Shown one piece after another: positions 3,688 through 19,553 of a DNA stretch of 64,000 nucleotides (positions are counted from its first letter, which is position 1; each line of letters starts with the position of its first letter). Below the pieces are notes generated by a model. The model saw only the letters and a list, made by a program, of their open reading frames with translations, was not told the origin of the DNA and ran no database searches. Source of the DNA: Actinomycetes bacterium (GTDB lineage: Bacteria > Actinomycetota > JAICYB01). The stretch covers positions 1 to 64,000 of the forward strand of contig JAICYB010000002.1 of NCBI GenBank assembly GCA_025934435.1, given 5' to 3'. A program made the position numbers and the translations under genes.

Positions 3688-3764
3688 GCAGGACTAGTCC
3701 TTCCCTCGAGGAAACGAGCTACAGGGCCCCCGGGTTACCGCCCGGTGGCGCCTATCCGGCCTGG

Positions 3765-4631
3765 TCAGGCCTGTTGGTGCGTCACCGGCTGACTCTTCGT
3801 CAGCTTCGCCCGGATGATGATCCGCTGGGCGGCGCTCCCCTTCGGGTTGCAGGCCGTCAGCGTCAGCTCCGGGTCGGCCGTGTTGGTGATGACCGACCAG
3901 TCGTACGGTGTGGTGATCCAAGGAGACCTCGAGACGGTATAGGTGTAGCGTCCGACCGGCGTCGTCAGGATGATCGAGTCGCCGACCTTCAGCTCGTTGA
4001 TGCGGTTGAACGGACGTCCGTAGGTCGTGCGGTGCCCCGCGATCGCCACATTCCCCCGCTGACCCGGAAGCGGTGTGTTCGGGTAGTGCCCGGCCCCCGC
4101 TCGAAGCGCCGACGGTGATGTGCCTTGGACGACGATCGTGTCGACGCTGATCGCCGGGATCTCGATCCGTGTGAGCGGGTCGCCTTCGCGCAGCGCGAGC
4201 CCATGCAGGCCGGCGAACTCCTTGGCCAGCTCGCCCTGGATCTTGTTGTGCTGCAGGTCCGAGAGGAAGTTCGACCAGGCGATCAGCTGCTCGACGGGGA
4301 CCCGGAAGAAGCCCGGATAGCTCCCGCCCGCCCACGGATAGGCGGCCATACCGATCCCGAGGATCGCGATGACCGCGAGCACGGCCGAGAGGCTGCGGCG
4401 GAACCACGACGTCTTCTGTCGCGGCGGCCAGATGACATATGCCGCGGTCCCGATGACCGGCACGCGGTACAGGCGCTGACGCCACGATGCGACGGGTTGC
4501 GTCGCCGGCGCCGGTTCGGACGCGCCGACCGTGATCGCGTCGGTGGTCGAACGCTCGCGCTGCGGCGCCGGCTTGCGCGGCGCGGGCTTCCGCTTGCGCG
4601 GTGTGGGCTTGTTCGGTGTGTCGTCGCTCAT
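3765..4631 (-). CDS. srtE: Class E sortase
   Basis: 288 aa. Lys/Pro-rich cytoplasmic N-terminus, membrane helix at about residues 80-98, then the sortase beta-barrel. The catalytic triad is visible: His200 in AGHRTTYG, Cys261 in LTLTACNP, and Arg270 in AAQRIIIRA. Sequence and topology fit class E sortases of high-GC Gram-positives, which attach LAXTG-type proteins to peptidoglycan. The ATG at 4631 has a TAGGAG ribosome site 6 bases upstream. It sits 81 bp after the ECF sigma gene on the same strand and is probably co-transcribed. No LAXTG or LPXTG substrate was found in the window, so its substrates lie elsewhere. Confidence 0.93.
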   Translation of the reverse strand: MSDDTPNKPTPRKRKPAPRKPAPQRERSTTDAITVGASEPAPATQPVASWRQRLYRVPVIGTAAYVIWPPRQKTSWFRRSLSAVLAVIAILGIGMAAYPWAGGSYPGFFRVPVEQLIAWSNFLSDLQHNKIQGELAKEFAGLHGLALREGDPLTRIEIPAISVDTIVVQGTSPSALRAGAGHYPNTPLPGQRGNVAIAGHRTTYGRPFNRINELKVGDSIILTTPVGRYTYTVSRSPWITTPYDWSVITNTADPELTLTACNPKGSAAQRIIIRAKLTKSQPVTHQQA

Positions 4632-4712
4632 GCTTGGCTCCTACGGTGCCGCCCGGAAGCCGGACGCGCTCAATGTACAAACAACGACGCGGACGCGGTC
4701 TAGGTTCTGCGG

Positions 4713-5315
4713 TCACTGTTCGTCCTTGCCATCGCGGTCGCCGAGCATGCCTTCGGATTCGAGGATCCGGGCGAGCGCGCGGAGCGCGCGGAACTGCAAC
4801 GCTTTCACGGCGCCCTCCGTCCGCTGCGTCGCGCTCGCGACTTCGGTGATGGCGAGCCCTTGGAAGAACCGCAGGTAGAGGATCTCTTGCTGATCCGCGG
4901 TGAGCCGAGCGAGCGCGAGCTTGAGATCGGCGCTCTCGACCTTGGAGAGCGCTTCCATCTCGGGATCACCTGTCGCGAGCGTGACAGGCGTTTCTTCGAC
5001 GACGACTTCCCAGCGGACGCGTCCCGACTTCACGTGGTCGAGGAAACGGTTCCGCGCGATCCGGATCAGCCAAGCGAGGAATTCGGACGAACCACCGGTG
5101 AACGACGAACGCACCGCGCGCATCGCGCGTAGATACGAGTCCTGCGCGAGGTCTTCGGCGAGTGCCGCATCGCCCGAACGACCGAACAGATAGCGATAGA
5201 CCGACGGCAGCGTGATGCGGAACAGCAACGCGAACGCTTCGGTGTCACCCGCGATCGCATCCCGCACCAGCGCGTCGGCCTCGGGCGAGCCGATCTCGAT
5301 CCGGGGGCCGGGCAC
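4713..5315 (-). CDS. ECF-type RNA polymerase sigma factor
   Basis: 200 aa, usual length for the family. Region 2 spans about residues 25-95 (ALFRITLPSVYRYLF, AEDLAQDSYLRAMRA, WLIRIARNRFLDH) and region 4 about 125-185 (LTADQQEILYLRFFQGL, the helix-turn-helix ITEVASATQRTEGAVKALQFRALRAL). It heads the operon with sortase and the DUF5667 membrane protein, so it probably controls envelope genes. The start is GTG at 5315. No ribosome site is visible, and a GATACT -10 candidate lies only 5 bases upstream, so the message may be leaderless. Divergent from the HtrA gene. Confidence 0.93.
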   Translation of the reverse strand: MPGPRIEIGSPEADALVRDAIAGDTEAFALLFRITLPSVYRYLFGRSGDAALAEDLAQDSYLRAMRAVRSSFTGGSSEFLAWLIRIARNRFLDHVKSGRVRWEVVVEETPVTLATGDPEMEALSKVESADLKLALARLTADQQEILYLRFFQGLAITEVASATQRTEGAVKALQFRALRALARILESEGMLGDRDGKDEQ

Positions 5316-5394
5316 GCTTCAGTATCAAACGCCGTACAGCGTTTCCGCAGCCCCGAGGGGGTTTCAGCATCCTCTTAGGTGCCTGTTCCACCAT

Positions 5395-5400
5395 GGAGGA
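5395..5400 (+). promoter_or_regulatory. Ribosome binding site of the HtrA gene
   Basis: GGAGGA just upstream of ATG 5404. It fixes this start in a frame that stays open much further upstream, where it is antisense to the sigma factor gene. Confidence 0.7.
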
Positions 5401-5403
5401 ACC

Positions 5404-6657
5404 ATGACGGCAGAAGACAGACACGACGAACCGACGACGGCCTACCCCTGGACGACCCAGACGAGCACCGCGGAACTTCCCCTCCACGACGGTCCCGTCT
5501 GGGATCCACGGACCGGTGAATGGGTGGAACCGACGAAGGAACGGCCCGCGTCGAACGACCGGCGCGCGTCGATGCGTTCGCTCCTCGCCGCAGCGATCGT
5601 CGGTGCGGTCGTTGCCGCCGCCGTCGCGTTTCCCGTTGCGCGGTTGACGTCGCGCTCGGCCCCCGCGATCGAACAACGCGTGCTGTCCGCGCCGCCGGCC
5701 GTGTCCGGCGCGACGACGAAAGGTGGTGCGTCCGTCGTCGGTATCGCGGCGAAGGCGCGGCCGTGGGTCGTGAACATCGACGTGTCGTCGTCGCAACAAA
5801 CGCTCTTCGGTTCCGTCCCGGTCGCCGGAACTGGCTCCGGCGTGATCATCCGTTCGGACGGATACATCCTCACGAACGCGCACGTCGTCACGGACGCGTC
5901 GTCGATCAACGTCACGCTCGCCGACGGATCGAAACTCACCGGACACGCCGTCGGCATCGATCCCGACACCGACATCGCCGTCGTCAAGGTCGACCGCAGC
6001 GGTCTGCCGGCCGCCGTTCTCGGCAGCGTGAAGAACATCCAGGTCGGTGAGCTCGCGGTCGCGATCGGGTCGCCGCTCGGACTGGATCAAACCGTGACGG
6101 CGGGCATCATCTCGGCGCTCGGACGAAGCGTCGACAGGACGAACCAACCGCCGCTTGTCGACATGGTGCAGACCGACGCGCCGATCACCGAAGGCAATTC
6201 CGGCGGCGCACTCGTCGACGCGACGGGCTCGGTCGTCGGCATCAACGCGGCCATCGCGACGGCACCGGATGTCGGCGGCACAGGCATCGGGTTCGCGATC
6301 CCGATCGACATCGCAACCGCCGTCGCGCGCCAGCTCATCGGCAGCGGCAAAGCGACGCACCCGTGGCTCGGGGTGAGCGGACAAGCCATCACACCGGAGA
6401 CCGCGCAACAATTCAAGGCGTCGCAGGGTGCGTTCATCGTCGCCGTGACGAAAGGCGGCCCGGCCGACCAGGGCGGCATGAAGGCGAACGACGTGGTCGT
6501 GTCCTTCGACGGACACAAGATCACGAGCATGGACGACCTCGTCGTCGCCATCCGCGAACGACAGGTCGGCGACAAGGTGACCCTCGGCGTGATCCGCGCC
6601 GGCAAGAACCTGACGCTCCACGTGGTCGTCGGCAACAAGCCCGCGAGCGCTCAGTGA
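5404..6657 (+). CDS. HtrA/DegP-like membrane-anchored serine protease with PDZ domain
   Basis: 417 aa. Cytoplasmic N-terminus (about 1-56), one membrane helix (about 57-78), trypsin-like protease domain and one C-terminal PDZ domain (about 325-410). The triad is visible as His160 (LTNAHVV), Asp190 (PDTDIAVVKV) and Ser266 (TEGNSGGALVD). Such proteins degrade or refold damaged exported proteins on the outer face of the membrane. The start at 5404 follows a GGAGGA site. The stop overlaps the next gene as GTGA. The divergent arrangement with the ECF sigma gene suggests both belong to envelope stress defence. Confidence 0.93.
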   Translation: MTAEDRHDEPTTAYPWTTQTSTAELPLHDGPVWDPRTGEWVEPTKERPASNDRRASMRSLLAAAIVGAVVAAAVAFPVARLTSRSAPAIEQRVLSAPPAVSGATTKGGASVVGIAAKARPWVVNIDVSSSQQTLFGSVPVAGTGSGVIIRSDGYILTNAHVVTDASSINVTLADGSKLTGHAVGIDPDTDIAVVKVDRSGLPAAVLGSVKNIQVGELAVAIGSPLGLDQTVTAGIISALGRSVDRTNQPPLVDMVQTDAPITEGNSGGALVDATGSVVGINAAIATAPDVGGTGIGFAIPIDIATAVARQLIGSGKATHPWLGVSGQAITPETAQQFKASQGAFIVAVTKGGPADQGGMKANDVVVSFDGHKITSMDDLVVAIRERQVGDKVTLGVIRAGKNLTLHVVVGNKPASAQ

Positions 6658-6938
6658 CGGTCCTTGCCTTCGAGCGATTCGTCGTGATGCCGGGAACCGA
6701 GAGCGAGCTCCGCGAGCTCGCGCAGGGAACGCTCGAAGCGCTCCGGAACGCGCCGGGCGCACTGTGGGCCGATCTCGCCGGAACGGACGACGGCTTCATG
6801 ATCGTCTCCGAATGGCGGTCGGCCGGCGACGCCGACGCGTGGGACGAAGGCGAAACCGCGAGGGGCTTCGTCCAAGGTCTCGACCCGCTCCTCGTCGGGG
6901 AACGGACGCGACGGCGGTTCGACGCCGTGCACCACTAG
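6654..6938 (+). CDS. Antibiotic biosynthesis monooxygenase (ABM) domain protein
   Basis: 94 aa single-domain protein of the dimeric alpha-beta barrel fold: a first strand (VLAFERFVVMPG), a helix (SELRELAQGTLEALRNAPG), and the later FMIVSEWRSAGDADAW strand-helix typical of ABM quinol/heme monooxygenase-like proteins. The substrate is unknown. The GTG start overlaps the protease stop as GTGA, so translation is coupled to the HtrA gene. Members of this family often handle reactive quinones or haem, which would fit a stress operon, but that is inference. Confidence 0.75.
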   Translation: MTVLAFERFVVMPGTESELRELAQGTLEALRNAPGALWADLAGTDDGFMIVSEWRSAGDADAWDEGETARGFVQGLDPLLVGERTRRRFDAVHH

Positions 6939-6975
6939 TTCAAGTCCGGCCCCTCCGGCGCCGATCACAGGTGGG

Positions 6976-7644
6976 ATGGCGGGGAATGGCGTTCACGGTC
7001 GTACCAACGGCACGCACGTGCGCCTGGTGCTCATCGCGCCGCACGCGCTTCCTCGCCTCGGTCTCGTCCGGCTCGTGGAGTCGATCCACGGCATGGAGGT
7101 CGTAGGCCACGCCGGCGGAACAGACGACGGCGTGCGGCTCGCGACCGAGCACCACCCCGACATCGTGCTCGTCGACGCCGAGCTTGCCGCCGACGAGGGG
7201 ATGCGCGTGGTGGATTCGATCAAGTCCGGTACGTCGTCGAGCCGTGTCCTGCTCCTCGCGGAGCGCGCCGCGCACATGCAGGTCGAGAGCGCGCTCGAAG
7301 CGGGCGCGGACGGCTACACGCTGAAGGACATCTCGCTCGACGAGCTCGAACAGGCCGTGCGCCGCATCGTCTCCGGCGACACGGTGCTTCATCCCGACGC
7401 AGCGGCGGCCGTCGCGCGACGCATCGCCGCGAACGGGAAGGAGAAGCCGTCGATGCTCACTCCAAGGCAGCGCGAGATCCTCCGGCTGCTGTCGCTCGGG
7501 CTCGAGAACAAGCAGATCGCGCGACGCCTCGGCATCGGCGTGCACACCGTGAAGACGCACGTGTCGCGCGTGCTCGCGAAGCTCGGCGCGTCGAGCCGAA
7601 CCGAAGCCGTCGTGTTCGCGTTGCGCGACCGGCTCATCTCCTAA
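6976..7644 (+). CDS. NarL/FixJ-type response regulator with LuxR HTH
   Basis: 222 aa. Receiver domain (about 15-135) with the probable phospho-acceptor Asp67 in DIVLVDAEL and the conserved Lys in GYTLKDI; LuxR-type helix-turn-helix at about 155-218 (LTPRQREILRLLSLGLENKQIARRLGIG, HTVKTHVSRVLAKLGASSR). A two-component transcription regulator; the partner kinase is not adjacent. The ATG at 6976 has a GGTGGG site directly before it; a GTG at 7018 would also keep the whole receiver. The stop codon interlocks with the end of the Tad operon (shared CTAA). Confidence 0.88.
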   Translation: MAGNGVHGRTNGTHVRLVLIAPHALPRLGLVRLVESIHGMEVVGHAGGTDDGVRLATEHHPDIVLVDAELAADEGMRVVDSIKSGTSSSRVLLLAERAAHMQVESALEAGADGYTLKDISLDELEQAVRRIVSGDTVLHPDAAAAVARRIAANGKEKPSMLTPRQREILRLLSLGLENKQIARRLGIGVHTVKTHVSRVLAKLGASSRTEAVVFALRDRLIS

Positions 7645-8024
7645 CGCTGCGGCGCGAAGATCCGGTTCACATCGAGCTTCGCTTCGGCGAACGCGCGCAC
7701 CTCGCGCGGCGCAACGCCGAGCATCCTGATCCGCGTCGGCATCGAGACCTCGACGCGGGCCGAGCTCCGCAGCGGGCACGCGCACGACACGAGGACGGCG
7801 CCGTTCGCGTCCGCCGCGGCCGTCGCCGCTTGCTCGGGGGTTTCGCCGTTCGCGGCGAACGGCCATTCCGCGGTCGCCGCCGCGAGCGCCGCGGCATCAG
7901 CAGCAGCTTGAGCACGCGCGCGCGACACGAGGACGTTCGCCGCGTCGGCCGTCACGAGGCAGAGCAACGCCGCGAGCGCCATCAGCGCGAGCAAGAGCGC
8001 GGCCGTGAAGCCGTCGTCGTTCAC
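7641..8024 (-). CDS. TadE-like secreted protein of the actinobacterial Tad locus (Rv3654c type)
   Basis: 127 aa. Begins with a type IV pilin-like hydrophobic helix (GFTAALLLALMALAALLCLV) followed by an Ala-rich helical region (SRARAQAAADAAALAAATAEW) and a small beta domain. This is the pattern of the short TadE/G-like protein that closes the Tad operon in mycobacteria and relatives. GTG start overlaps the tadE stop as GTGA, so it is the last gene of a tightly coupled operon. It is probably a minor pseudopilin or envelope partner of the pilus; function in this position is not well known. Confidence 0.8.
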   Translation of the reverse strand: MNDDGFTAALLLALMALAALLCLVTADAANVLVSRARAQAAADAAALAAATAEWPFAANGETPEQAATAAADANGAVLVSCACPLRSSARVEVSMPTRIRMLGVAPREVRAFAEAKLDVNRIFAPQR

Positions 8025-8401
8025 GGCGGATCACGCTCGAGTCGCATCGTCGCCTTCGCTTCGAGCGGAAGGTGCAGCGCGACGATCTTCGATACGACGG
8101 GGATTCGCAGCTCCTCCGTATAGGACAGATCGATGCCGACGCTGTCGCCGCGCGTGGCCGCGGACGAGATCTCCGTCGCGATGCGATCGGCGTCGAGCGG
8201 TCCGGCGCTGCCACGTACGGCCGCGCGTGCTTCGTCCGGCGAAGCGGTGATCGCCATCGCCCGGACGCCCTCGCGCGCGGCTTGGTCGAGCGCGAGGGCG
8301 TCCCGGACGACGATGCCGACCTGCACGATGAGCAGGAGTGCCAGCAGCACGATCGGCATGGCGAGAGCGGCTTCGAGAGTCGCTTGTCCGCGATCGCTCA
8401 C
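8021..8401 (-). CDS. TadE family pseudopilin
   Basis: 126 aa. DRGQATLEAALAMPIVLLALLLI is the TadE signature: a short basic leader, the Glu five residues into the processed helix, and a long hydrophobic segment, then a periplasm-facing domain. The frame is open upstream, but the Arg-rich extension is not protein-like; GTG at 8401 gives a normal TadE N-terminus and overlaps the stop of the pilin gene as GTGA. Role: minor pilin needed for Flp pilus assembly. Confidence 0.85.
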   Translation of the reverse strand: MSDRGQATLEAALAMPIVLLALLLIVQVGIVVRDALALDQAAREGVRAMAITASPDEARAAVRGSAGPLDADRIATEISSAATRGDSVGIDLSYTEELRIPVVSKIVALHLPLEAKATMRLERDPP

Positions 8402-8616
8402 GGCGTCGGCGTCGGCGAAGCGTTCGGATCGACCGAGTTGACGAGTTTGTCGAAGATCGCGTTGAAGAAGCTGTCGAGCTTCCCCGACTGCTTCGCCCAC
8501 AGCAAGAAGGCGACGGCTATCGCCGCGACAACGAGCAGAACGAGCGCGTACTCGGCGACGGTTTGCCCGGCGTCGGCGAACAAGAGCGATTCGAACCAGC
8601 AATACAGACGCTTCAT
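8398..8616 (-). CDS. flp: Flp-type (type IVb) pilin
   Basis: 72 aa, a normal size for Flp pilins. Short leader, then DAGQTVAEYALVLLVVAAIAVAFLLW, with the conserved Glu-Tyr pair at the start of the pilin helix, and a short tail ending in a Pro/Thr run. Prepilin cleavage would be expected just before the hydrophobic helix. The ATG at 8616 is preceded by AAAGGAG. It lies 13 bp after tadBC and overlaps tadE. This is the probable major pilus subunit. No prepilin peptidase is encoded in the window. Confidence 0.87.
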   Translation of the reverse strand: MKRLYCWFESLLFADAGQTVAEYALVLLVVAAIAVAFLLWAKQSGKLDSFFNAIFDKLVNSVDPNASPTPTP

Positions 8617-8629
8617 CCTTCTTCTCCTT

Positions 8630-9682
8630 TCACCCGGCGATCTGTTGCAGACCACCGACGAACAACGGGACGAGACACGCGAGAACGAACGCGGGAAGCA
8701 CGAGGACCGACAACGGCACGAGCACGTGGACGCTCGCGCGGCGCACGTCTTCGGCCAGACGCGTCGACGCCGACTCGCGTATGTCATCCGCGAGTGAGCG
8801 GAGCGCCGGCGCGAGAGGCACGCCGAGCTGGGCCGAACGTTCGAAGGCGCGCGCGAAGCGGCGACAGGCGTCGTCTGTGAATGTCGCCGCCACTTCTTCG
8901 AGCGCGCGATGCACGGGCACGTGACGAACCTCCGCGGCGAGACGCAAGGCGCGGCCGAACGAACCGCGCGCGTACGGCGCGACGGCGACGAGTGCGGCAC
9001 CCGGCGCGAGACCGGCATCGAGTGCGAACGCGACCGTCTCCGCGGCTTCCGCAACCTCGACATCGATCGCATCGCGGGTGCGTCCGGCGATGAGCGCGTG
9101 CACCGCGCGAAGGACGGGAACGCCCGCGAGCCGCGAGGACGAACCACCGGCGCGCGACACGATGGCGCCGATCCAGAACGCACCGAGGATCTGCAAGCCG
9201 AGGCCGAGACCGATCGCGAGGCGGGTGCGCGGATCGGTGACGAAGCGCACCGCACCGTGCGGATCGGACAGAGCGACGAGCGCGAGGAACGCGGGAGTGA
9301 GGCAGAGGATCGCCCGCGCGCCGAGGCGCGCGTGCGTGGTGAGGGCACGGGCTTGCTCGCGCGCCGCTGCGCGGCGCCCGAGCACGCCAACGAGGGACCT
9401 CACCGCGGGGAGCGGGTCGCCTCCGGCCTCGGCGTGCACGGCGAGGACGCAGAGAGCAGCACTGACGTCGGTCTCGTCCGGGCGTGGGTTGCCGGCGGCC
9501 GCGGCGAGGGCTTGGGTGAGCGGCCGGCCGGCGACGAGAGCCGTGGCGACGGGCGCGAAAGGCGACCCCTCTCCCGCGGTGGAAACCATCGCTTGACGAA
9601 GCGAAGAACCGGAACGGAGTGCGTCGGCGATGTCGTGCAGCGCATCGACGACCGACGGCTCGCGGAAGCGACGGCGGATCAT
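8630..9682 (-). CDS. Fused TadB-TadC type II secretion F-domain membrane protein
   Basis: 350 aa. Two T2SSF-like modules occur in one chain: the first at about residues 10-110 (VVDALHDIADALRSGSSLRQAM, HAEAGGDPLPAVRSLVGVLG) followed by membrane helices (about 125-180), and the second at about 210-320 (VAFALDAGLAPGAAL, ERSAQLGVPLAPALRSLADD) with a C-terminal membrane helix. Actinobacteria usually encode these as separate short TadB and TadC. It forms the inner-membrane platform of the pilus machine. Start ATG 9682 overlaps the tadA stop as ATGA; the longer upstream frame is discounted. Confidence 0.85.
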   Translation of the reverse strand: MIRRRFREPSVVDALHDIADALRSGSSLRQAMVSTAGEGSPFAPVATALVAGRPLTQALAAAAGNPRPDETDVSAALCVLAVHAEAGGDPLPAVRSLVGVLGRRAAAREQARALTTHARLGARAILCLTPAFLALVALSDPHGAVRFVTDPRTRLAIGLGLGLQILGAFWIGAIVSRAGGSSSRLAGVPVLRAVHALIAGRTRDAIDVEVAEAAETVAFALDAGLAPGAALVAVAPYARGSFGRALRLAAEVRHVPVHRALEEVAATFTDDACRRFARAFERSAQLGVPLAPALRSLADDIRESASTRLAEDVRRASVHVLVPLSVLVLPAFVLACLVPLFVGGLQQIAG

Positions 9683-10806
9683 CGCGAACCTCGGATCGCC
9701 GGACGAAGCACCGCACCGGACGCGCCGACCTTCACTTCGCACACCTCGGCCACGCAGCGCTTCCCGTCGCCACGCCGCTCGAGATGCACGATGAGATCTA
9801 TGGCCGACGCGATCTGACGGCGCGCCGCGGCAACGGAAAGACCCGGTGCGGCGAGGAGCGCCATGATCTCGAGACGCATCAACGCTTCGCGTGGTGCGTC
9901 CGCGTGAACGGTGGCCATCGAACCGGGATGACCCGATGTGAGCGCTTGCAACATGTCGAGCGCCTCGGCCCCCCGAACCTCACCCACGACGATCCGGTCG
10001 GCGCGCATCCGCATCGCGCATCGGACGAGATCGCGGAGCGTGACGGCGCCTCGTCCCTCGACATTCGGCGGACGCGTTTCGAGCGACACGACGTGTCGTT
10101 CGCCGAGACGAAGTTCGGCGGCGTCCTCGATCGTGATGATCCGCTCGCTCGGATCGACCATGCGCGCGAGCACGCCGGCGAGCGTCGTCTTCCCGGTGCC
10201 GCCGCCGCCCGACACGAGCACGTTCTCGCGATCTCGGACGGCAGACGCGAGCCGGACCGCCGTCGCTTCGTCCAGCGCGTGCATCGCGATCAGGTCGTCG
10301 AGCGTCCAGAGGTCCTCGGCGAATTTCCGGATCGTGACGACGGGTCCGCCGAGCGCGATCGGCGGGAGCAGCGCATGGAAGCGCGCGCCGTTCGGAAGTC
10401 GCGCGTCGACCCACGGTGAGCTCGCGTCCGCGCGCAGACCGAGCGGCGAAACGACACGTTCGATCAGATGGCGAACGTCGGCTTCGTTCGCGAATCGCAC
10501 GTCGGTCACCTCGAGATGGCCGCCGCGCTCGACGAAGACCTCGCCGCCCGCGTTCACCATCACTTCGCTCACGGACGGATCGCGCAGCAGCGGACCGATC
10601 GGTCCGAAACCGCCGAGCTCGTCGGCGATCGCGAGCGCGGCGTTCCGCTTCGTCTCCGGACGCCACTCGATGCGGCGGGTCGCGAGCACCTCGTCGAGCG
10701 CCGACTCGACGCCGCCGACGGTCACGCCGGCGCTCGCACCGAGTCGCCGGCCGACCTCAGCCGTGAGCGACTCGGGAGCCTCGGGCGATGGACGGCGGAG
10801 CGCCAT
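9679..10806 (-). CDS. tadA: TadA/CpaF-type pilus assembly ATPase
   Basis: 375 aa. N-terminal domain with DPSVSEVMVNAGGEVFVE, then the VirB11/CpaF ATPase core: Walker A SGGGGTGKTTLAG (about residue 200), Asp box IITIEDAAELRL, Walker B-like RADRIVVGEVRG, and the His box TSGHPGSMATVHA. It powers Flp pilus assembly or secretion at the cytoplasmic face. First gene of a five-gene operon whose members overlap or nearly touch. In relatives a CpaE-like gene precedes tadA; none is seen here. Confidence 0.93.
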   Translation of the reverse strand: MALRRPSPEAPESLTAEVGRRLGASAGVTVGGVESALDEVLATRRIEWRPETKRNAALAIADELGGFGPIGPLLRDPSVSEVMVNAGGEVFVERGGHLEVTDVRFANEADVRHLIERVVSPLGLRADASSPWVDARLPNGARFHALLPPIALGGPVVTIRKFAEDLWTLDDLIAMHALDEATAVRLASAVRDRENVLVSGGGGTGKTTLAGVLARMVDPSERIITIEDAAELRLGERHVVSLETRPPNVEGRGAVTLRDLVRCAMRMRADRIVVGEVRGAEALDMLQALTSGHPGSMATVHADAPREALMRLEIMALLAAPGLSVAAARRQIASAIDLIVHLERRGDGKRCVAEVCEVKVGASGAVLRPAIRGSR

Positions 10807-11077
10807 CTACAGGCCCGCTTTCGCGCGGACGACGCGCACCCACTCGGGCTCCGCCCGCCGGATGAGGGCGGCGCGAAGCCGCCGAAGAAGACCCCGCACG
10901 ACAACCTCCGGGACACTTCAGGGGGAAGACCGTGGGGAAGGCCTCAAGAACGTAGCAGGGGCCACCGACATGCCGCTGACCAGCGCGGATGCGGGTATCC
11001 ATGCTCGCGCACTTGCATGATTTTTCCTAAGTGTTATACACTCATATCCGTTGAACGTTCGGAAAGGAGGAAGCGGT
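10807..11077. other. Divergent intergenic region between tadA and hsp20
   Basis: About 270 bp without a convincing gene. It should hold the Tad operon promoter (leftward) and the hsp20 promoter (rightward, described separately). A perfect hairpin GGCGGC/GCCGCC with a GCGAA loop lies at 10867-10883, within the probable tad leader. Its sequence has no U-tract, so it is not a classical terminator. Confidence 0.6.
11013..11042 (+). promoter_or_regulatory. hsp20 promoter with operator-like palindrome over the -10
   Basis: -35 TTGCAT at 11013-11018, 16-base spacer, -10 TATACA at 11035-11040. A perfect inverted repeat AGTGT-TAT-ACACT at 11030-11042 covers the -10, suited to a repressor. It is not the CIRCE element and only loosely resembles HAIR, so the repressor is unknown. 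Confidence 0.55.
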
Positions 11078-11536
11078 ATGGTTCTCGCACGTTGGGCACC
11101 CTTCGCCGAGGCGCAGGACGATTTCAATTCGCTCGTGCGCCGCGCCTTCGGTGACTTCGGATCGAGCATCGCTCGCACCGCCGGTGCGTGGGCTCCGGCG
11201 ATCGACGCGTTCGTCGAGGGCGAAGCGCTGCACGTCCGGGCCGAGCTTCCCGGGATCGATCCCGACGCCGACGTCGACATCGAGGTCGACAACGGCGTGC
11301 TGACGATCGCCGGCGAGCGCAAGCACGAGGCGAAGCACGAAGGCAACGGCTGGTTCCGGAGCGAGATGAGCTACGGACGCTTCGAACGTCGCATCGGTCT
11401 TCCCGACGGCGTCGACGCCGAGCACGTCCGCGCGACCTACGACAAGGGCATCCTCGAGGTGACGGTTCCGATGCCGGCGAAGAAGACCACGAAGGTGAAG
11501 GTCGGCGTCGGCACGCAGAAGGAACTGAAGGACTAA
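11078..11536 (+). CDS. Hsp20/alpha-crystallin small heat-shock protein
   Basis: 152 aa. The alpha-crystallin domain spans about residues 40-135 (WAPAIDAFVEGEALHVRAELPGID, DNGVLTIAGERK, FERRIGLPDGVD, and the closing GILEVTVPMP). ATP-independent holdase that keeps unfolding proteins soluble under stress. The ATG at 11078 has an ideal AAAGGAGG site 8 bases upstream. It is a single-gene unit: its own promoter with palindrome precedes it and a strong intrinsic terminator follows at once, which suits tight and strong stress induction. Confidence 0.93.
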   Translation: MVLARWAPFAEAQDDFNSLVRRAFGDFGSSIARTAGAWAPAIDAFVEGEALHVRAELPGIDPDADVDIEVDNGVLTIAGERKHEAKHEGNGWFRSEMSYGRFERRIGLPDGVDAEHVRATYDKGILEVTVPMPAKKTTKVKVGVGTQKELKD

Positions 11537-11552
11537 CTGCCCATCACTCGCG

Positions 11553-11593
11553 AGCCGGAGGGTCCGACGAGCGACCCTCCGGCTACGCTTTTT
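11553..11593 (+). terminator. Rho-independent terminator of hsp20
   Basis: A perfect 12-bp stem, AGCCGGAGGGTC (11553-11564) paired with GACCCTCCGGCT (11573-11584), closes an 8-base loop, and is followed by a run of five T at 11589-11593. It lies 16 bp after the hsp20 stop. The next gene starts only 4 bp after it. Confidence 0.9.
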
Positions 11594-11596
11594 CCG

Positions 11597-12546
11597 ATGT
11601 CCGCTCCCGCATGGGATCTGTTCCGCAAGGAAGGGATACGAACGGGGACAGCGTCGTGGACGGACCGCTCACTCCTCGAGCCGGGCCTCTTCTACCCGTC
11701 CGGCGTGAGCAAACCCGACCAGCGACTCGCGTTCTACGCCGAGCACTTCCCCATCGTCGAGGTCGACGCGACGTATTACGCGCTGCCGTCCGAGAAGAAT
11801 TCACAGAGTTGGGCCGAGCGGACCCCCGACGATTTCATCTTCAACGTCAAGGCGTTCTCGCTCATGACGCAGCACTCGACGAACGCGCGCGGTTTGCCGA
11901 AAGATCTTCGCGAGACGCTCGGCGAAGACGTGCTCGACAAACCGCGCATCTACCCGCGCGATCTCCCGCGTGATCTCATCGACGAGACGTGGACGCGGTT
12001 CTTCGCGGCGCTTCGTCCGTTGCACGAGCATCACAAGCTCGGCGCGATCCTGTTCCAGTTTCCGGAATGGTTCCCGCCGTCGCGCGAGAACCGCGAACAC
12101 GTCGTCAAGTGCGGCGATCGCGTCGCGGCCGAGCTTCCCGGCGTCGCATGCGCGATCGAGTTCCGCAACGAGCGCTGGATGTCGGATGACGAGCGGAGGC
12201 AGCGCAGCTTCGAACTGCTACGCGAACACGGACTGACGTATGTGTGCGTCGACATGCCGCAAGGCTTCCCGACGTCGATCCCCCGGTCGCCGAAGCAACG
12301 GCGCCGCTCGCGATGGTGCGCTTCCACGGACGTCGCGACGACACGTGGGGCAAGCGGAATATCAACACACACGACAAGTTCGGCTACGACTACTCGCCCG
12401 AAGAACTGACCGAGTGGGAACCGAAGGTCGAGAAACTCGCGGACCAAGCACGCGAGGTGCACGTGCTGATGAACAACTGCTACCGCGACTACGCCGTCCG
12501 CTCGGCACAGACGATGGCGCAGCTCGGTTTGGATCTGATGGTTTAG
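11597..12546 (+). pseudogene. DUF72 (YecE family) gene broken by a -1 frameshift
   Basis: The first frame gives a normal DUF72 start and core (GIRTGTASWTD, VEVDATYYALPSEKNSQSWAER, YVCVDMPQGFP) up to about 12280, then turns into Arg/Ser-rich nonsense. The remaining third of the domain (MVRFHGRRDDTWGKRN, YDYSPEELTEWEPKV, HVLMNNCYRDYAV) continues in another frame to the stop at 12546. One extra C in the run of five C at 12280-12284 would join the two exactly. DUF72 proteins have a TIM-barrel fold and unclear function. A TACGCT -10 ends 7 bases before the ATG, suggesting a leaderless message. The break may be a sequencing/assembly slip or a true lesion. Confidence 0.85.
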
Positions 12547-12577
12547 GACGAACCATCACCGGGCATCGATATGCCCA

Positions 12578-13330
12578 ATGCCGGCAGCCCGACGATGGTT
12601 CCTGCTCGTCTGCGGTCTCGCTCTCGCGTTCGCGGGATGCACGAGCGGTAAGAACGTCGCTTCCCCGGCCCCCTCGGAGCAGCCGACGGCCACCGCGTCG
12701 CAGTCCGTCACGGACTTCCAGCTGGTCGGCACCGCTCAGCACGCGTTCGTCGGCATCGGGCCGGGCTTCGACACCAGCGCGCAGTCGACGGACGTGCAGG
12801 CGACGCCGCTCGCGACGGCTGCGTCCGGCACGACGTTCGGCAACGCCGGACAGCCCGGCGTGATGCGCATCCTGCTCGACGACGCGTCCGACTCCTTGAA
12901 GTCGAGCTGCTCCGCCGACCGGGACGAAACGATCGATGTCTTCTGGACCACGGGCACGCAGTTCGACCAGTCGCTCCTGACGGCCAACCTCGAGTCGTCC
13001 CTCGAAGGACGCACCCTCGGCGTCGTCGGGCGCCTGTTCACCTCGCCGAGCGGCAGCGACGTGATCGGCGAAGCCACACCGGCGCCGACGTCCGACGCGA
13101 GCGCCACACCGGGCGCGACGGCGAACCCGTCGTGCGTGCTCGTCGCGGATCAGATCGGCACGTCGAGCGGGACGATACCGACGGCGGTTCCGCGCCGCGG
13201 GGCGCTGCGGACGGTTGCTCCGACGGCACGCGCAACCGTGTCACCGACACCGAAGGCGACCGCGAGCCCCACGCCGGCTCCGACGCCGACGTCCACCGTC
13301 GCGGTCATCCCCACGCCCACGGCGACCTGA
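12578..13330 (+). CDS. Secreted lipoprotein with Pro/Thr-rich C-terminus, function unknown
   Basis: 250 aa. Clear lipoprotein signal: basic start, hydrophobic stretch and lipobox LAFAGC with Cys21 as the lipidated residue. The middle (about 40-180) is a beta-rich domain with two Cys (SSCSADRDETIDVFW and NPSCVLVADQ). The last 60 residues are a TP/AP low-complexity tail of the kind also seen in the DUF5667 protein of this window. I recognise no family. It is flanked by the DUF72 and patatin genes and appears to be transcribed alone or with the former. Confidence 0.75.
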   Translation: MPAARRWFLLVCGLALAFAGCTSGKNVASPAPSEQPTATASQSVTDFQLVGTAQHAFVGIGPGFDTSAQSTDVQATPLATAASGTTFGNAGQPGVMRILLDDASDSLKSSCSADRDETIDVFWTTGTQFDQSLLTANLESSLEGRTLGVVGRLFTSPSGSDVIGEATPAPTSDASATPGATANPSCVLVADQIGTSSGTIPTAVPRRGALRTVAPTARATVSPTPKATASPTPAPTPTSTVAVIPTPTAT

Positions 13331-13470
13331 AGCCGTCGCGCCGAGTTCAACACTAGTTAACAAACGCAACATTACCCTTGTACTAGTTCGCGCTGACCTG
13401 GGCGGATGGGCAGTACGCGTCGTTTGGGTTTTCTTGGTATGGCCGTTTCCTTTACGAGGAGGCGAGTGCG
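13331..13470. other. AT-richer intergenic region with two ACTAGTT copies
   Basis: 140 bp before the patatin gene, clearly richer in A+T than the surroundings. ACTAGTT occurs at 13352-13358 and 13382-13388, exactly 30 bp apart (about three helical turns, same face). Probable promoter region; no confident -35/-10 pair could be assigned. Confidence 0.45.
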
Positions 13471-14322
13471 TTGACGATCCGAGAGATGTTCGGGCACAGG
13501 ACGCGGACGGCGTTCGTGCTCGGCGGCGGTGGCAACCTCGGATCGATCCAGGTCGGACAGCTCAAGGCGCTGTTCGAGCGGGGCATCGTCCCCGACGTCG
13601 TGATCGGCTGTTCGGTCGGCGCGCTCAACGGCGCCGCCATCGCGGACGACCCGGCGATGACGGGGGTCGAGCGCCTCGAGCAGCTGTGGCGGGGTCTCGC
13701 CGGCAAGGACATCTTCCCGAGCTCCTCGTTCGGCTCCCGCGGGCCGTGGCGGTTCGTCCGCAACGGGCTTTCGGCCTACGGCGATACCGGCCTCCGCCAG
13801 CTCATCTCATGGCTGCCCTTCGAGCGGTTCGAAGAGGCGAAGCTCCCGTTCTGGGTCGTCGCGACCTCGCTCCGCCTCGGTGTCGAGCGCTGGTTCAACC
13901 ACGGAGACGTCACGGCGGCCCTGCTCGCGTCGACGGCGCTTCCCGGCGTCTTCCCGCCGGTGACGATCGATGGCGAGGACTACATCGACGGCGGCGTCGT
14001 GAACAACGTCCCGATCAGCAAAGCGTTCGATCTGAAGGCACGCAAGGTGTACGTCCTCGACGTCGGCAACCTCGAGCGCGAACGCACGCAGCCGAAGCGT
14101 CCGTACGAGGTGCTCATGCAGGCCGTGAGCATCGCGCGCGCGCATCGCTACCGGCTGGAACGTGAGCACGCGCCCGAGAAGGTCGAGCTCTACCGGCTGC
14201 CGGCGCCGGACGTGGGACGGCTCCGCTACGACGACTTCACCCGCTCGCCCGAGCTCATCGACCGCGCCTACATCGACACGAAGGCCTACCTCGACGGGAC
14301 GGCCCGAGCGTTGCCCGCGTAA
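13471..14322 (+). CDS. Patatin-like phospholipase
   Basis: 283 aa. Contains the oxyanion loop GGGGNLGSIQVG (about residues 18-29), the nucleophile elbow GCSVG with Ser48, and the DGG motif with Asp173 (YIDGGVVNNVP), so the Ser-Asp dyad is complete. Acts as a lipid acyl hydrolase, probably cytoplasmic or membrane-associated, as there is no signal peptide. The start is TTG at 13471, supported by a GAGGAGG site 8 bases upstream and by lack of any nearer ATG. It ends 10 bp before the selenocysteine tRNA gene, so the two may share a transcript. Confidence 0.92.
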   Translation: MTIREMFGHRTRTAFVLGGGGNLGSIQVGQLKALFERGIVPDVVIGCSVGALNGAAIADDPAMTGVERLEQLWRGLAGKDIFPSSSFGSRGPWRFVRNGLSAYGDTGLRQLISWLPFERFEEAKLPFWVVATSLRLGVERWFNHGDVTAALLASTALPGVFPPVTIDGEDYIDGGVVNNVPISKAFDLKARKVYVLDVGNLERERTQPKRPYEVLMQAVSIARAHRYRLEREHAPEKVELYRLPAPDVGRLRYDDFTRSPELIDRAYIDTKAYLDGTARALPA

Positions 14323-14332
14323 GCTTCCGCAC

Positions 14333-14424
14333 GGAGGCGTTCGGGGGCTGGTGCCTTCCCTGGTCTTCAAAACCAGTGCGGCGAGCGATCCTCGCCGGGC
14401 GGGTTCGATTCCCGTCCGCCTCCG
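14333..14424 (+). tRNA. selC: tRNA-Sec (UCA anticodon)
   Basis: 92 nt without encoded CCA. Acceptor GGAGGCG (14333-14339) pairs with CGCCTCC (14417-14423), discriminator G14424. The D stem is 6 bp (GGGGGC with GCCTTC, two G-U pairs), the anticodon stem CTGGT/ACCAG encloses loop CTTCAAA with anticodon TCA at 14367-14369, and a long variable arm has a perfect GGCGAG/CTCGCC stem. The T stem is extended (GGCGGG with CCCGTC) around TTCGATT. Acceptor plus T stems total 13 bp, the selenocysteine-tRNA hallmark. A UCA anticodon, long D stem and long variable arm together exclude ordinary tRNA-Ser. It implies that the genome makes selenoproteins; selA, selB and selD are not in this window. Confidence 0.93.
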
Positions 14425-14430
14425 CTACGA

Positions 14431-15240
14431 CTACTGCGCGGCGATCGTATACGAGCCCGCGGTGTCCGGATCGAACTGTGAGACCTGCACGTAATAGATG
14501 CCGGCGGCTCCCGCGCTGATGGTGATCATCTCTTGCTGCCCGCGGAAGTTGTTGTCGACTTGGTTCAGCTGGTTCTGCCCCGCGTCGTAGCTCGTGAGCA
14601 CGATGTCGGGCTCAGGAGAGGGAGTCACCGTGACGGTGACCGACTGATTCGTCCCAAGCGTCATCTTGTAGAAGTCCGCGCTCCCCGGACAGAGCCCGCC
14701 GTTGGTCGCCGCGGATCCCGCAGTCAGCGTCGTCGCCGTCGCGAACGTGTCGTTCAGACCTGCCACGCAGGTGCCCACGGTCGTCGTCACCGCTGACGGC
14801 GTGCAGTTATTCGTCTCGTTCTTCTCTCTCACGGTATTGCCGCTGTCGGCGCAAGCGATCACGAAGTACGGCCCATTCGCCGTTCCGCCCGGTATGTCCG
14901 CATGGACGGGACCACTGACCGATTTCCGCGGGCGGATCGGAGCCACGGTCGTCGTACCGATAGCCGGGTCGCCGGCATCCTTCGTCGCATCTGAAGACAG
15001 ATAGAGCGTCAGGGTGGACGCCGGCGCTCTCCTCTTCCGGCTCCGGTTCTTGATCGTCACGTTCTCGGTGAAACCTTCGCCGACGACTCGCGTCGAGGGC
15101 GGATCGGAGATGGCGGTCACGACAAGGTCGGCCTTGCCTCGTGCAAGCGCGGACGGAGAGACGGTCATCACGAGGATCGCAGCCAGCGCTGCCACCCCGG
15201 CACGGCGCACGACACGACGAAGCAAGGTTGCCCGCATCAC
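14431..15240 (-). CDS. Secreted protein with CARDB and pre-peptidase C-terminal (PPC) domains
   Basis: 269 aa. Signal peptide (about 1-34, ending PSALARG), then a CARDB-like Ig-fold domain (about 36-140: DLVVTAISDPPSTRVVGEGF, VTIKNRSRKRRAPAS, SGNTVREKNETNNC) and a PPC-type jelly-roll domain (about 155-268: LNDTFATATTLTAGS, DFYKMTLGTNQSVTVTV, GIYYVQVSQFDPDTAGSYTIAA). Both are extracellular binding or spacer domains. There is no catalytic domain, so it probably acts as a binding or surface protein. The end lies 6 bp from the tRNA-Sec gene, convergent to it. Confidence 0.85.
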   Translation of the reverse strand: MMRATLLRRVVRRAGVAALAAILVMTVSPSALARGKADLVVTAISDPPSTRVVGEGFTENVTIKNRSRKRRAPASTLTLYLSSDATKDAGDPAIGTTTVAPIRPRKSVSGPVHADIPGGTANGPYFVIACADSGNTVREKNETNNCTPSAVTTTVGTCVAGLNDTFATATTLTAGSAATNGGLCPGSADFYKMTLGTNQSVTVTVTPSPEPDIVLTSYDAGQNQLNQVDNNFRGQQEMITISAGAAGIYYVQVSQFDPDTAGSYTIAAQ

Positions 15241-15317
15241 GCCACTCCTGTTCGTTCCGACGCGACGGCCGAACGCTAGTGCCGAGCCGAAGACATGTCA
15301 ATGTCGGGCCGCGGCGA

Positions 15318-15344
15318 GGTTTCGTCCTCGCGGCCGGCGGGTAA
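15318..15344 (+). promoter_or_regulatory. SigB/SigF-like promoter of the STAS-MEDS operon
   Basis: GGTTT at 15318-15322, a 16-base spacer, then GGGTAA at 15339-15344, about 20 bases before the ATG at 15365. This matches the GTTT-N14-17-GGGTA pattern recognised by SigB/SigF-type general stress sigma factors, which are the usual targets of the STAS and anti-sigma proteins encoded here. Confidence 0.5.
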
Positions 15345-15364
15345 GAATAGGGACTCGGTACTGC

Positions 15365-15727
15365 ATGTCTATCGAAACGGGCGCCGCGGGCAGCTCCCGA
15401 ACCGCAGGGTGGGAAGTACGGACCCTCAGCGGTCACGCGACGCTGTCTTTGTCCGGGGACGTCGACATGGCCGCCGTTATCGGCGCCGCGCCCGGACTCC
15501 TCGTGAAGCTGCTCGATGCCGTGCGGGGCGCCGGGTCGGTCACGTGTGACCTCGCGGAGGTTGGCTTCATGGACTCGAGTGGTATCCATCTCCTCGTGAA
15601 GCTTCGCGATGAGCTCGTAGCGGCGGGAGTGGCCTTCGAAGTCGTGAGACCGAAGGCCAACGTCGCTCGGATCTTCGAGCTCGTCGATGCGGATTCGCTT
15701 TTCCGGATCGTGGAGCCCGCGGTGTGA
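15365..15727 (+). CDS. STAS-domain anti-sigma factor antagonist
   Basis: 120 aa. A single STAS domain with LSGDVDM, the phosphorylatable serine region GFMDSSGIHLLVKL, and a closing helix NVARIFELVDADSLF. In partner switching the unphosphorylated form binds the anti-sigma kinase and frees a sigma factor. The ATG at 15365 is the first in a sensible position; the longer open frame runs antisense to the CARDB gene. The stop overlaps the next gene (GTGA), whose kinase domain is its likely partner. A SigB/SigF-like promoter precedes it. Confidence 0.88.
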   Translation: MSIETGAAGSSRTAGWEVRTLSGHATLSLSGDVDMAAVIGAAPGLLVKLLDAVRGAGSVTCDLAEVGFMDSSGIHLLVKLRDELVAAGVAFEVVRPKANVARIFELVDADSLFRIVEPAV

Positions 15728-16665
15728 CCGAGCTCAGCGTGCGTCCGCACGATCACATCGTCGCCTTCTACGACGAGGACGCCGACATCGTCGACCGCGT
15801 CGTCCGATTCGTCGGCGAAGGTCTCCGGGCGGACGATGCCGCCATCATCATCGTGACACCCGACCACCGGATCGCGATCGACGCCGGCCTCGTTGCGCGC
15901 GGCCTCGATCTCGGCGCGCTGCGCGCGTCCGGACGCTACGTCCCACTCGACGCTCTCGAAACGCTCGCGAGCTTCATGTCGGACGGACTGCCGGATCCCG
16001 AACGCTTCCACGACGTCGTCGGCTCGGTCGTTCGTGCGGCAGCGTCGGCCGGCACCGGCATCCGCGCGTTCGGCGAGATGGTCGCGCTCCTCTGGAGCGA
16101 AGGAAATGTTGCCGGCGCGATCGAACTCGAGAGCACCTGGAACGAGCTCGCCGAACAGGAGCGTTTCGTCCTCCTGTGCGGCTACCCGCTGCACACCGTC
16201 ATCGAGCGCGACGACCTCGACGCGCTCACGCGCGTATGCACATCGCATTCCGAACTCGTCGGTCCCGGAAGTTACGAGCGCTTCGATCCGAGCGGTGGCG
16301 GAACTTCGCGCACATTCCTACCGGTGATCTCCGCCGTGACGGCGGCGCGCACGTTCGCCGAACACACGCTCGATTCGCTCGGCGTGTCCGAGATCGCGCC
16401 CGACGCGACGATCGTCGTTTCTGAGCTTGCGTCGAATGCGGTCATGCACGCCGATTCGGCGTTCCGCCTGACGATCGAGCGTGATGACGCCGTCGTCCGC
16501 ATCACGATCGATGACATCAACGACGCCGAACCGTCGAGTCCGGAGCGCACGATGGAGACGATCGGCGGGCTCGGTCTCGTCCTGGTTGACGGACTGACGT
16601 CACGCTGGGGAACGGAGCTCCTGCCGTCCGGCAAACGCGTGTGGTGTGAGTTCGCGCTGAGCTAG
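15724..16665 (+). CDS. MEDS sensor domain fused to RsbW-like anti-sigma kinase domain
   Basis: 313 aa. N-terminal MEDS/DcmR-like sensory domain (about 8-175: PHDHIVAFYDEDADIVDRVVRFV, GLRADDAAIIIVTPDH, FGEMVALLWSEGN) and C-terminal HATPase_c domain (about 195-310) with N-box VSELASNAVMHA and a GGLGLVLVDGLTSRWG G2 box. It is the type of protein in which a small-molecule sensor controls a serine kinase or anti-sigma activity. Translationally coupled (GTGA) to the STAS gene, so the pair forms a complete switch; the target sigma factor is not in the window. Convergent with the next gene through a shared CTAG. Confidence 0.87.
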   Translation: MTELSVRPHDHIVAFYDEDADIVDRVVRFVGEGLRADDAAIIIVTPDHRIAIDAGLVARGLDLGALRASGRYVPLDALETLASFMSDGLPDPERFHDVVGSVVRAAASAGTGIRAFGEMVALLWSEGNVAGAIELESTWNELAEQERFVLLCGYPLHTVIERDDLDALTRVCTSHSELVGPGSYERFDPSGGGTSRTFLPVISAVTAARTFAEHTLDSLGVSEIAPDATIVVSELASNAVMHADSAFRLTIERDDAVVRITIDDINDAEPSSPERTMETIGGLGLVLVDGLTSRWGTELLPSGKRVWCEFALS

Positions 16666-19553
16666 GACGAAGCCGAGGCGCCGCGGCGTCCGAACGACGC
16701 TTGAGCATGCGCACCGTCGTAGGTGTCGTCGCCGTCGAACGACGCCGTGACGGTCTTCCCCCTCGGATCCGCGAACTTGAAGACGGCGCGCGCGCGTCCC
16801 GAGCCGTCCGTCGTGACCGTCACGTGCTTCGACCCGAGTGAGACCTCGATGTCCTCTCCGTCGACACCGTGCGACGTTTCCACATCGGTGAGCACGACGT
16901 CGACGTTGACCCTTCCGCGCCGGCCCTTACTTGCCGTGAATGAGATCTTGCTCTTCCGCTTGTCGACCTCGAACGTCTTGTTATCCGACGCCGTCGTTCT
17001 GATGTCGTCACCGTCGTAGGACACAACGGCGGTGTCCGTAGCGGCCGCGGGACCGGCGACGGTGAAGGCCGAGGACGCAACGCCGCTCGCGTCGGTCTTG
17101 ACGTCGTGCGTCGCGCCTTGGAAGCCGAAGTGCAGGGTCGCGCCGGAGACGGGGCCCGCGCTGTCGGTGAGCTTCGCCACGAAGGTCGAGTCGTCACCGA
17201 TCGTTCCCTTCGTTACGCTCGAGGGCTGGAACGCCACCGTCGGCTTGCGCTTCGCGACGAACGACCCTTGCGCGTCGGCCGGAGGACGAAGCATCCCGTC
17301 GCCGTCGTAATCGACGACGACGGAGTTCTGTCCGGCCGGCTCGTTCACCGGGACGGTGACGGTCGCCTTCCCGTTCGAGTCGGTCGTTCCGTCGTAGACC
17401 ATGCCCTGGAACGTGAAGTGCAGCGTCTGCCCCGACACACCTCCGAGCTGGTCGCTGAGGGTCGCGGACAGGTGCGCGGGCGTTCCGATCACGCCGGAGG
17501 TATCACCGTCGATCGTGATCGTCGTCGCGTCGACGGCCGGACCGGACGGAGCGCCCGCCGGCGTCGACGGCAGGACCGTCGCGACGAGCGGAACGTCGGC
17601 GGCGTGCCCGTAGCTCTCGCCGACGTTCCCGGCGTCGCCGGAGAGCACGACCATGCGCGTCTCGGCGTCCACCTCCGTGAGGGGAACGGTTCCGGCGGGG
17701 CCGACGTTGTCCGATTCCGGCGTGAACATGACCTGCACGCCGTGGGCGCCGAAGAGTCCTTGTCGCCAGCCACCGGGCGGCGTCGGCGTGTCCGGTTTCC
17801 AGCACGGCTGCGTGGGGTTGTCGCTCGCCGGACCCGGGTCCGTGCCCGTTCCGTCGTCGAAGCACGCGTCGTCGCGGTAATACGGAAGCGAGATCAAAGC
17901 CTGCGCGTCGCCCGGCGACAGGTGGTCGGTCGCGGTGTTGAGACGACTGCGGAAGACCATCGAGCCCGACTTGCCGGCGACCTCTTCCCACGCAAGCGTT
18001 CCGGTCGCGTTGAGCGTCGGATCCGTGACGTCGAAGTCGGTGCACTCGGTGACGCAACCGCTCGTCGAGCCGACCGTCACCGGATGGTCCTTGAAGGCCG
18101 GATCGTCGTCGCGGAGCTCGACACCTCCGCTGTGCAGCGCGACGTAGTCCGTGCCGAGCACTTCGTCGTTGACTCCGTCGACGGCTACGCCGTCGGACTG
18201 CTCGGGGTTGTAGTACTTCGTCACGACGCCGGCGGTGTGGTCCCAGTAGGAGAAGATGCCGCCGAGCGGTGGGATCGGGTGCACACGGAGGTAGGTGTCC
18301 TGGATGATCTCGTCCGGATAGAAGTACTCGGTCCGGACGGTGTTCGTCCCCGAGTCGGAGCCCCACGTCGTGCGGAGCGCACGGACGGGACCGACCTTCT
18401 CGCCCAGCGTGACGGACGAACCGCCCCAGTCGTCGAAGGACTCGTTCTCGAAGCCGCAGCAGGGCGTGTCGTCGCTCGGGCGCTGCGCGTACGCGCGAGC
18501 TTTCCACTCGTCGACGAGGGCCGGACCGTAGTCGTCCGGTGAAGCGAGCGGCTGCGTTGCGTCCTTATCGGGATTCACGCGCACGCCGCGGAGCTCCCAG
18601 CGGCTGGCGTAACGGAAGGCGTACCGCGGCGTGAGGACCCAGGCTGTGTCCTTCGGACGGCGCGCGACGTTGTGCTTGATCACGTTGCCGTTGGCGTCGC
18701 AGACGTCGCCCTTCGGCGCGTTGCCGTAGTTGTCGGATGTCTCCTGGTACTGGAACGAATCGGCGTCGCGGACGTAGCGCATGTATCCGTTGCTCGCGTC
18801 GAACGCCGGGTGCACGGATCCGTTCGACAGACCGACGTAAGCGAAGACGGGCGGCGCGGTCGGCGAGGTCGGATCGGTGACGCGGACCTCGCGTATCTGC
18901 GTGATGCCTGTGGGCAGCGTCGCATTCGCGGGAGCCTGTGCACCCGCGTCCTTCGTCAGGAAGGAAAGCTCGTCGTTGTCGTCGAGTCCGGGGATCGGAT
19001 CTGCCTCGGGGCCGCCGGTAGGCGTCGCGACGCATTCGCCGCCCGTGTACTTGTAGACGTCGCGGTCGTAGACATAGCTCGGCTGCTGGTCGGTGCCGGC
19101 GTAGGCACCGAAGCCGACACAGAACGGCCCGGCCTGGTTGCAGTTGGACGCGAAGTTCGAGATGTACCGGTTGAACTTCTCGTCGACCTGGAAGGGGATC
19201 TGGACGAAGCCCTTCCCGTCCACCCAGTGGTAGCCGATCAGATCGCCGACCGCGACGCCCGCCTTCAGGGCCGGGACGCGGACGTCGGCCTTCTCGGAGC
19301 AGTTGTGGATCACTCCGTCGCTTTGGTCGGCCTGGCACGAGCTCGTCGGCGGCTGGGCCGGGAGCTTGGCCGAGATCTCCGGTCCCGCCGACCAGTCGGG
19401 GAACTGCGAACCGGTCAGCACGACGGGCTCCACGGACCGGTCCTGCGGGAGAGAAGGGGTTCCGACGCTCGGGGTGGCGGCCTTCGCGGCAAGGGGAAAC
19501 AGGCCCGTGAGCAGGGCGAATGCGACCGAGAACACGGCTCCCCTCCGCGGCAT
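16662..19553 (-). CDS. Large secreted protein with C-terminal Ig-like repeats
   Basis: 963 aa. Signal peptide (about 1-25, ending AAKA). A long N-terminal region (about 40-680), rich in aromatic and Cys residues, matches no family I recognise. The C-terminus has three Ig-like modules of about 90 residues (about 695-960) with repeated motifs LHFTFQG, LHFGFQG, VVDYDGDG, VVSYDGDD, SFDGDDTY, like big Ig-like repeats of surface proteins. No enzyme motif or wall anchor is visible. The ATG at 19553 lacks a ribosome site, but a TATCCT -10 ends 6 bases upstream, so the message is probably leaderless. Confidence 0.8.
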   Translation of the reverse strand: MPRRGAVFSVAFALLTGLFPLAAKAATPSVGTPSLPQDRSVEPVVLTGSQFPDWSAGPEISAKLPAQPPTSSCQADQSDGVIHNCSEKADVRVPALKAGVAVGDLIGYHWVDGKGFVQIPFQVDEKFNRYISNFASNCNQAGPFCVGFGAYAGTDQQPSYVYDRDVYKYTGGECVATPTGGPEADPIPGLDDNDELSFLTKDAGAQAPANATLPTGITQIREVRVTDPTSPTAPPVFAYVGLSNGSVHPAFDASNGYMRYVRDADSFQYQETSDNYGNAPKGDVCDANGNVIKHNVARRPKDTAWVLTPRYAFRYASRWELRGVRVNPDKDATQPLASPDDYGPALVDEWKARAYAQRPSDDTPCCGFENESFDDWGGSSVTLGEKVGPVRALRTTWGSDSGTNTVRTEYFYPDEIIQDTYLRVHPIPPLGGIFSYWDHTAGVVTKYYNPEQSDGVAVDGVNDEVLGTDYVALHSGGVELRDDDPAFKDHPVTVGSTSGCVTECTDFDVTDPTLNATGTLAWEEVAGKSGSMVFRSRLNTATDHLSPGDAQALISLPYYRDDACFDDGTGTDPGPASDNPTQPCWKPDTPTPPGGWRQGLFGAHGVQVMFTPESDNVGPAGTVPLTEVDAETRMVVLSGDAGNVGESYGHAADVPLVATVLPSTPAGAPSGPAVDATTITIDGDTSGVIGTPAHLSATLSDQLGGVSGQTLHFTFQGMVYDGTTDSNGKATVTVPVNEPAGQNSVVVDYDGDGMLRPPADAQGSFVAKRKPTVAFQPSSVTKGTIGDDSTFVAKLTDSAGPVSGATLHFGFQGATHDVKTDASGVASSAFTVAGPAAATDTAVVSYDGDDIRTTASDNKTFEVDKRKSKISFTASKGRRGRVNVDVVLTDVETSHGVDGEDIEVSLGSKHVTVTTDGSGRARAVFKFADPRGKTVTASFDGDDTYDGAHAQASFGRRGASASS

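Follow-up and report, generated by a model that had tools for sequence, protein, structure and literature searches.

The selenocysteine tRNA gene and its surroundings

A selenocysteine tRNA gene (selC) of 92 nt, including the discriminator base G73, occupies positions 14333–14424 on the plus strand of the window, the 64,000-nt stretch of DNA analysed here (C89:1–64000). It lies between a patatin-like phospholipase gene (13471–14322, plus strand; Pfam PF01734, 110.3 bits) and a convergent downstream gene for a secreted CARDB/PPC-domain protein (14431–15240, minus strand; Pfam PF07705 and PF04151). The window belongs to a draft genome of 3.33 Mb in 133 contigs, estimated at 94% completeness and 3.6% contamination. 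An earlier sequence-only reading of this DNA had guessed an actinobacterial origin, which is right at the level of the phylum, Actinomycetota; one genome of the phylum set (G361, locus L188) matches Mycolicibacterium rhodesiae DSM 44223 with 100% identity over 6186 bp. Our class-level comparison set comprises three genomes, this one and those of two sister genera of the same family (G001 and G002).

ARAGORN calls a tRNA-SeC with anticodon TCA at 14333–14425 on the plus strand, the single tRNA in the window, and the Rfam tRNA-Sec covariance model RF01852 matches 14333–14423 over its full length (model positions 1–91 of 91) with 77.9 bits and an E value of 2.6e-14. With a gathering score of 47 bits and this E value, the match is not due to chance. 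It is also the top match to the model in the whole genome; the runner-up, at 43.7 bits, falls below the cut-off and is a tRNA-Ser according to ARAGORN. The locus is a genuine selenocysteine tRNA gene, and the two tools confirm the identity that had been read from the letters; the end point given there, 14424, is G73. CCA is not encoded by the gene.

The predicted fold is that of a bacterial 8/5 type tRNA-Sec with one departure. The UCA anticodon, which reads UGA, lies at 14367–14369 (ARAGORN anticodon position 35), the D arm (14343–14358) has a 6-bp stem (14343–14348/14353–14358) in which two pairs are G-U, and the long variable arm (14379–14397) is built on a 7-bp stem (14379–14385/14391–14397). 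The UCA anticodon, 6-bp D stem and long variable arm, all claimed by the earlier reading, are borne out by the sequence and the Rfam alignment, and together with G73 they are conserved in the sister genera. The 5' strand of the acceptor stem (14333–14340) pairs with 14416–14423 at seven of eight positions, and the T stem (14399–14403/14411–14415) has a G-U as its outermost pair. A 13-bp acceptor plus T stack had also been proposed; the stack does have the 13 positions of the RF01852 type, but a U-C mismatch at acceptor pair 8 (14340/14416) leaves 12 pairs. The first pair of the anticodon stem is likewise mismatched. Aligned homologues from G001 and G002 show 94% mean column identity apart from pair 8, which is U-C in one and A-C in the other and hence unpaired in both, and their D stems are preserved by compensating base changes. 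Bacterial tRNA-Sec with a 12-bp stack has been described previously, but with an acceptor stem of 7 bp (PMC5330540).

The patatin stop codon (14320–14322) leaves the 10-bp gap to the tRNA that had been counted before, and, also in line with the earlier reading, none of selA, selB and selD was found on the tRNA-Sec contig. The neighbour of tRNA-Sec is an ABC-transporter ATPase gene in G001, while in G002 it is flanked by SDR and amidohydrolase-like genes (families named from sequence). Because tRNA-Sec sits between unrelated genes in both sister genera, the patatin neighbourhood is probably incidental: the position is not conserved, probably carries no functional meaning, and the patatin and CARDB/PPC genes are probably unrelated to the tRNA. 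A shared transcript with patatin, which the earlier reading raised as a possibility, is a weaker point than the UGA recoding. A search of 13300–14700 for a shared promoter found no sigma-70-like site, a result that is uninformative in a genome of 67% G+C.

In-frame UGA codons in four selenoprotein families

The sequence-only reading held that the tRNA implies UGA recoding in this genome, and it suggested a search for UGA-interrupted formate dehydrogenase and peroxiredoxin genes followed by SECIS-like hairpins. Genes of both kinds are present, as FdhA and a TxxU peroxiredoxin. A formate dehydrogenase profile search of the genome identifies FdhA on contig C23 with one in-frame TGA. With this codon read as selenocysteine (Sec), the gene gives a frame of 1089 aa that scores 1880.5 bits against NCBIfam NF041513, and in the genome search the same profile matches at full length across the TGA with 1874.6 bits (cut-off 1400 bits). 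In an alignment with E. coli FdnG (PDB 1KQF), the U falls on the Sec (X) of that enzyme, Sec196. Only two codons occur at this position among 89 relatives, TGA (84) and TGC (5).

The Rfam model SECIS_3 falls on the FdhA UGA with an E value of 0.027, under its gathering score, and the region folded alone has an unexceptional energy (z −0.21); the case for a SECIS here is carried by conservation and covariation, not by folding energy. All seven pairs of the hairpin 3' of the TGA form in 52 of the 73 distinct TGA sequences from FdhA relatives, and in these the apical loop is GGUCU, AGUCU or AGUUU. Across the 73 sequences, 96% of pair cells are intact; with permuted 3' arms the mean falls to 88% and the highest value is 90%. 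Cys-type FDH genes keep 3–4 of the seven pairs, which indicates that the hairpin erodes once the UGA has been replaced. On these comparisons, FdhA has a canonical bacterial SECIS hairpin with a GGUCU apical loop.

Downstream of FdhA lie FDH-beta-like, MobA, MoaA, FdhD, MoeA, MoaC, MogA-like and MoaE-like genes, so that the block (positions 2798–17457 of locus L080; C23, ~48.8–63.5 kb) combines a Sec formate dehydrogenase with a near-complete set of molybdenum-cofactor genes. Upstream of it are a phage-type integrase gene, at a distance of ~3–4 kb, and a tRNA-Ala gene. FdhA resembles the actinobacterial-type Sec formate dehydrogenase (NF041513/FdnG type) in its profile score, in the placement of its UGA, in its SECIS loop and in the cofactor genes that follow. 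Its sequence, however, does not group with Actinomycetota: in our tree it falls among Geobacteraceae, Acidobacteriota and Myxococcota sequences, split from the actinobacterial group with support of 100/99. The FDH block may have been laterally acquired, and because it seems so, FDH alone is weaker evidence than four unrelated selenoproteins.

We considered and rejected the possibility that FdhA sits on a contaminant contig. Three of four pieces of C23 match the genome in composition, the fdh piece included, and the tetranucleotide correlation of that piece to the genome mean (r 0.85) is in the range of ordinary pieces (0.83–0.93), against 0.56 for the likely stray contig C6. The latter (L208, 3228 bp) carries a second IF-2 gene fragment and is likely a contaminant in the bin. 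Two further stretches, C10:1–20000 (L204) and C23:31001–46000 (L198), have a lower G+C content (0.61–0.625) and a low tetranucleotide correlation (0.50–0.62) to the rest, and are possible mobile or otherwise unusual regions.

A scan over ~2.0 Mb of the 3.33-Mb genome for TGA codons that are flanked on either side by coding signal and accompanied by a hairpin recovered FdhA and three further genes, so that four selenoprotein genes are a lower bound. The first is a ResA-like redoxin of the WAxxUGC type, with the motif WASWUGC (C121:9989; L201, 9599–10591), which scores 216.5 bits against NF041054, below the cut-off of 300, and passes the cut-off of Pfam AhpC-TSA. The second encodes a UGSC-family protein (L221:5736, 5451–5975; C10, ~205.7 kb) and exceeds the cut-offs of both PF24696 (163 bits) and NF041046 (165.3 bits). 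The third is the TxxU peroxiredoxin, in which TPGU occupies the peroxidatic position (C35:2995; L296, 2863–3321; Pfam AhpC-TSA, 103.7 bits). Prx-like (UGC-containing), UGSC-containing and TxxU Prx proteins are known selenoprotein families (PMC2398784), and the Sec motifs found here are like theirs, with no difference that matters. We assign all three proteins, as predicted selenoproteins, to known families in a new lineage. Many other TGA candidates from the scan resemble genuine stop codons ahead of a new gene, or frames on the wrong strand, and were set aside.

The frame stays intact past the UGA in all four genes, and the hairpin of the redoxin gene carries the same GGUCU apical loop as that of FdhA, which brings the genes with such a SECIS to at least two of the four. 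SelD is encoded here along with four genes that contain a UGA and belong to established selenoprotein families, and on this sequence evidence the claim of UGA recoding in the genome has good support.

SelD and the missing selA and selB

Bacteria charge tRNA-Sec with serine by SerRS, and SelA then makes Sec-tRNA-Sec from Ser-tRNA-Sec using selenophosphate supplied by SelD. SelB brings the product to UGA codons that are followed by a SECIS hairpin. The earlier suggestion to look for selA, selB and selD across the genome succeeded in part: selD was found, but the draft yielded neither selA nor selB. SelD is encoded on C104 (TIGR00476, 383 bits; cut-off 125). Its gene (L009, 108–2436) adjoins cysteine-synthase-like and JAB/Mov34-type peptidase-like genes, with families named from sequence, a neighbourhood that appears sulfur/selenium-flavoured. 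We ruled out that this SelD serves selenouridine, because MnmH, the other known SelD client that we looked for, is absent from all three genomes of the class.

SelA has no match at E ≤ 0.001 anywhere in the 133-contig, 94% complete draft, and SelB has none above its cut-off in the same contigs; the SelB-profile matches that we examined are IF-2, LepA, TypA, EF-G and EF-Tu. A search for fragments of either protein in ~2.0 Mb of the draft (1.9 Mb non-N) returned only translation-factor GTPases or chance matches. Set against the bacterial Sec-decoding trait (SelA, SelB, SelC and SelD), the genome shows the likeness in SelC, SelD, UGA-containing selenoprotein genes and SECIS elements, and differs in that selA and selB are unrecovered and that selC adjoins none of the sel genes.

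Both sister genera carry tRNA-Sec together with an ordinary SelA (~510–525 bits) and an ordinary SelB (~340–355 bits), and in G001 selA and selB lie near each other. G002, which has a full SelB on its contig C149, also shows a second SelB-like N-terminal domain near a contig end (C76:19661–20536, L050; 189 bits, profile positions 1–265), possibly a duplicate, possibly an ordinary EF-Tu. A clear tRNA-Sec (E up to about 3e-10) occurs in 205 genomes of a 397-genome phylum sample, and selA accompanies it in 199; the remaining six are the present genome and five others of 60–95% completeness. Bacterial selB and selC are reported to occur always together with selA and selenoproteins (PMC1273633). 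We consider it most likely that selA and selB fall in an assembly or binning gap of the draft, and a single missing stretch that would hold both is the simplest reading. In G001 and G002, selA comes after an ABC-transporter pair. The nearest such pairs in the present genome (C34 and C75; 34–40% identity) have neither selA nor a fitting contig end, and this synteny did not locate the gap.

A probable ordinary selenocysteine system in a little-sampled lineage

We propose, with a probability of roughly 0.93, that the gene is the functional selC of an ordinary bacterial Sec system, with selA and selB lying in a gap of the draft and the proximity to patatin being incidental. An alternative is that the trait is decaying, such that selA and selB were recently lost and the tRNA, SelD and UGA-containing genes are relics that terminate at UGA. 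The absence of both genes from an assembly in which the tRNA and selD remain fits this picture. Relics, however, would not be expected to comprise four selenoprotein genes with intact frames beyond the UGA, nor an FdhA that keeps its canonical SECIS hairpin whereas the hairpin erodes in Cys-type relatives; both sister genera, moreover, have kept the Sec system. We regard decay as improbable.

Slimmer still is the chance that Sec-tRNA is made and delivered in this lineage with neither SelA nor SelB, by a different Sec synthase and elongation factor that go unrecognised by the selA and selB profiles. The combination of tRNA-Sec, SelD and at least four selenoproteins with no detectable SelA or SelB is what such a system would look like, but ordinary versions of both proteins are present in members of the same family, and a gap in the draft is by far the likelier explanation, compared with a lineage-specific replacement of the two. 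That the tRNA call is itself false, the locus being a class II (serine-like) tRNA or a pseudogene, is refuted in practice: the mismatches at acceptor pair 8 and in the anticodon stem would fit it, but the covariance score is far over the cut-off that the genome's own tRNA-Ser fails to reach, and two sister genera share the UCA anticodon and a D stem maintained by compensating changes.

Under an ordinary Sec system, the tRNA-Sec of this organism would be charged with serine by SerRS, and a presumed SelA would convert Ser-tRNA-Sec to Sec-tRNA-Sec with selenophosphate from SelD. A SelB, likewise presumed, would deliver the Sec-tRNA-Sec to the UGA codons and SECIS elements of the selenoprotein genes, where Sec is predicted to be inserted.

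The finding is useful, ordinary annotation: it adds a new member to a well-known system, from a lineage that has been little sampled, and leaves our knowledge of Sec decoding unchanged. At least four genes of this genome, those for FdhA, the redoxin, the UGSC protein and the peroxiredoxin, are split or cut short by automatic annotation at a UGA that most probably encodes Sec. The finding also extends the map of selenium users to a small, uncultured class of Actinomycetota.
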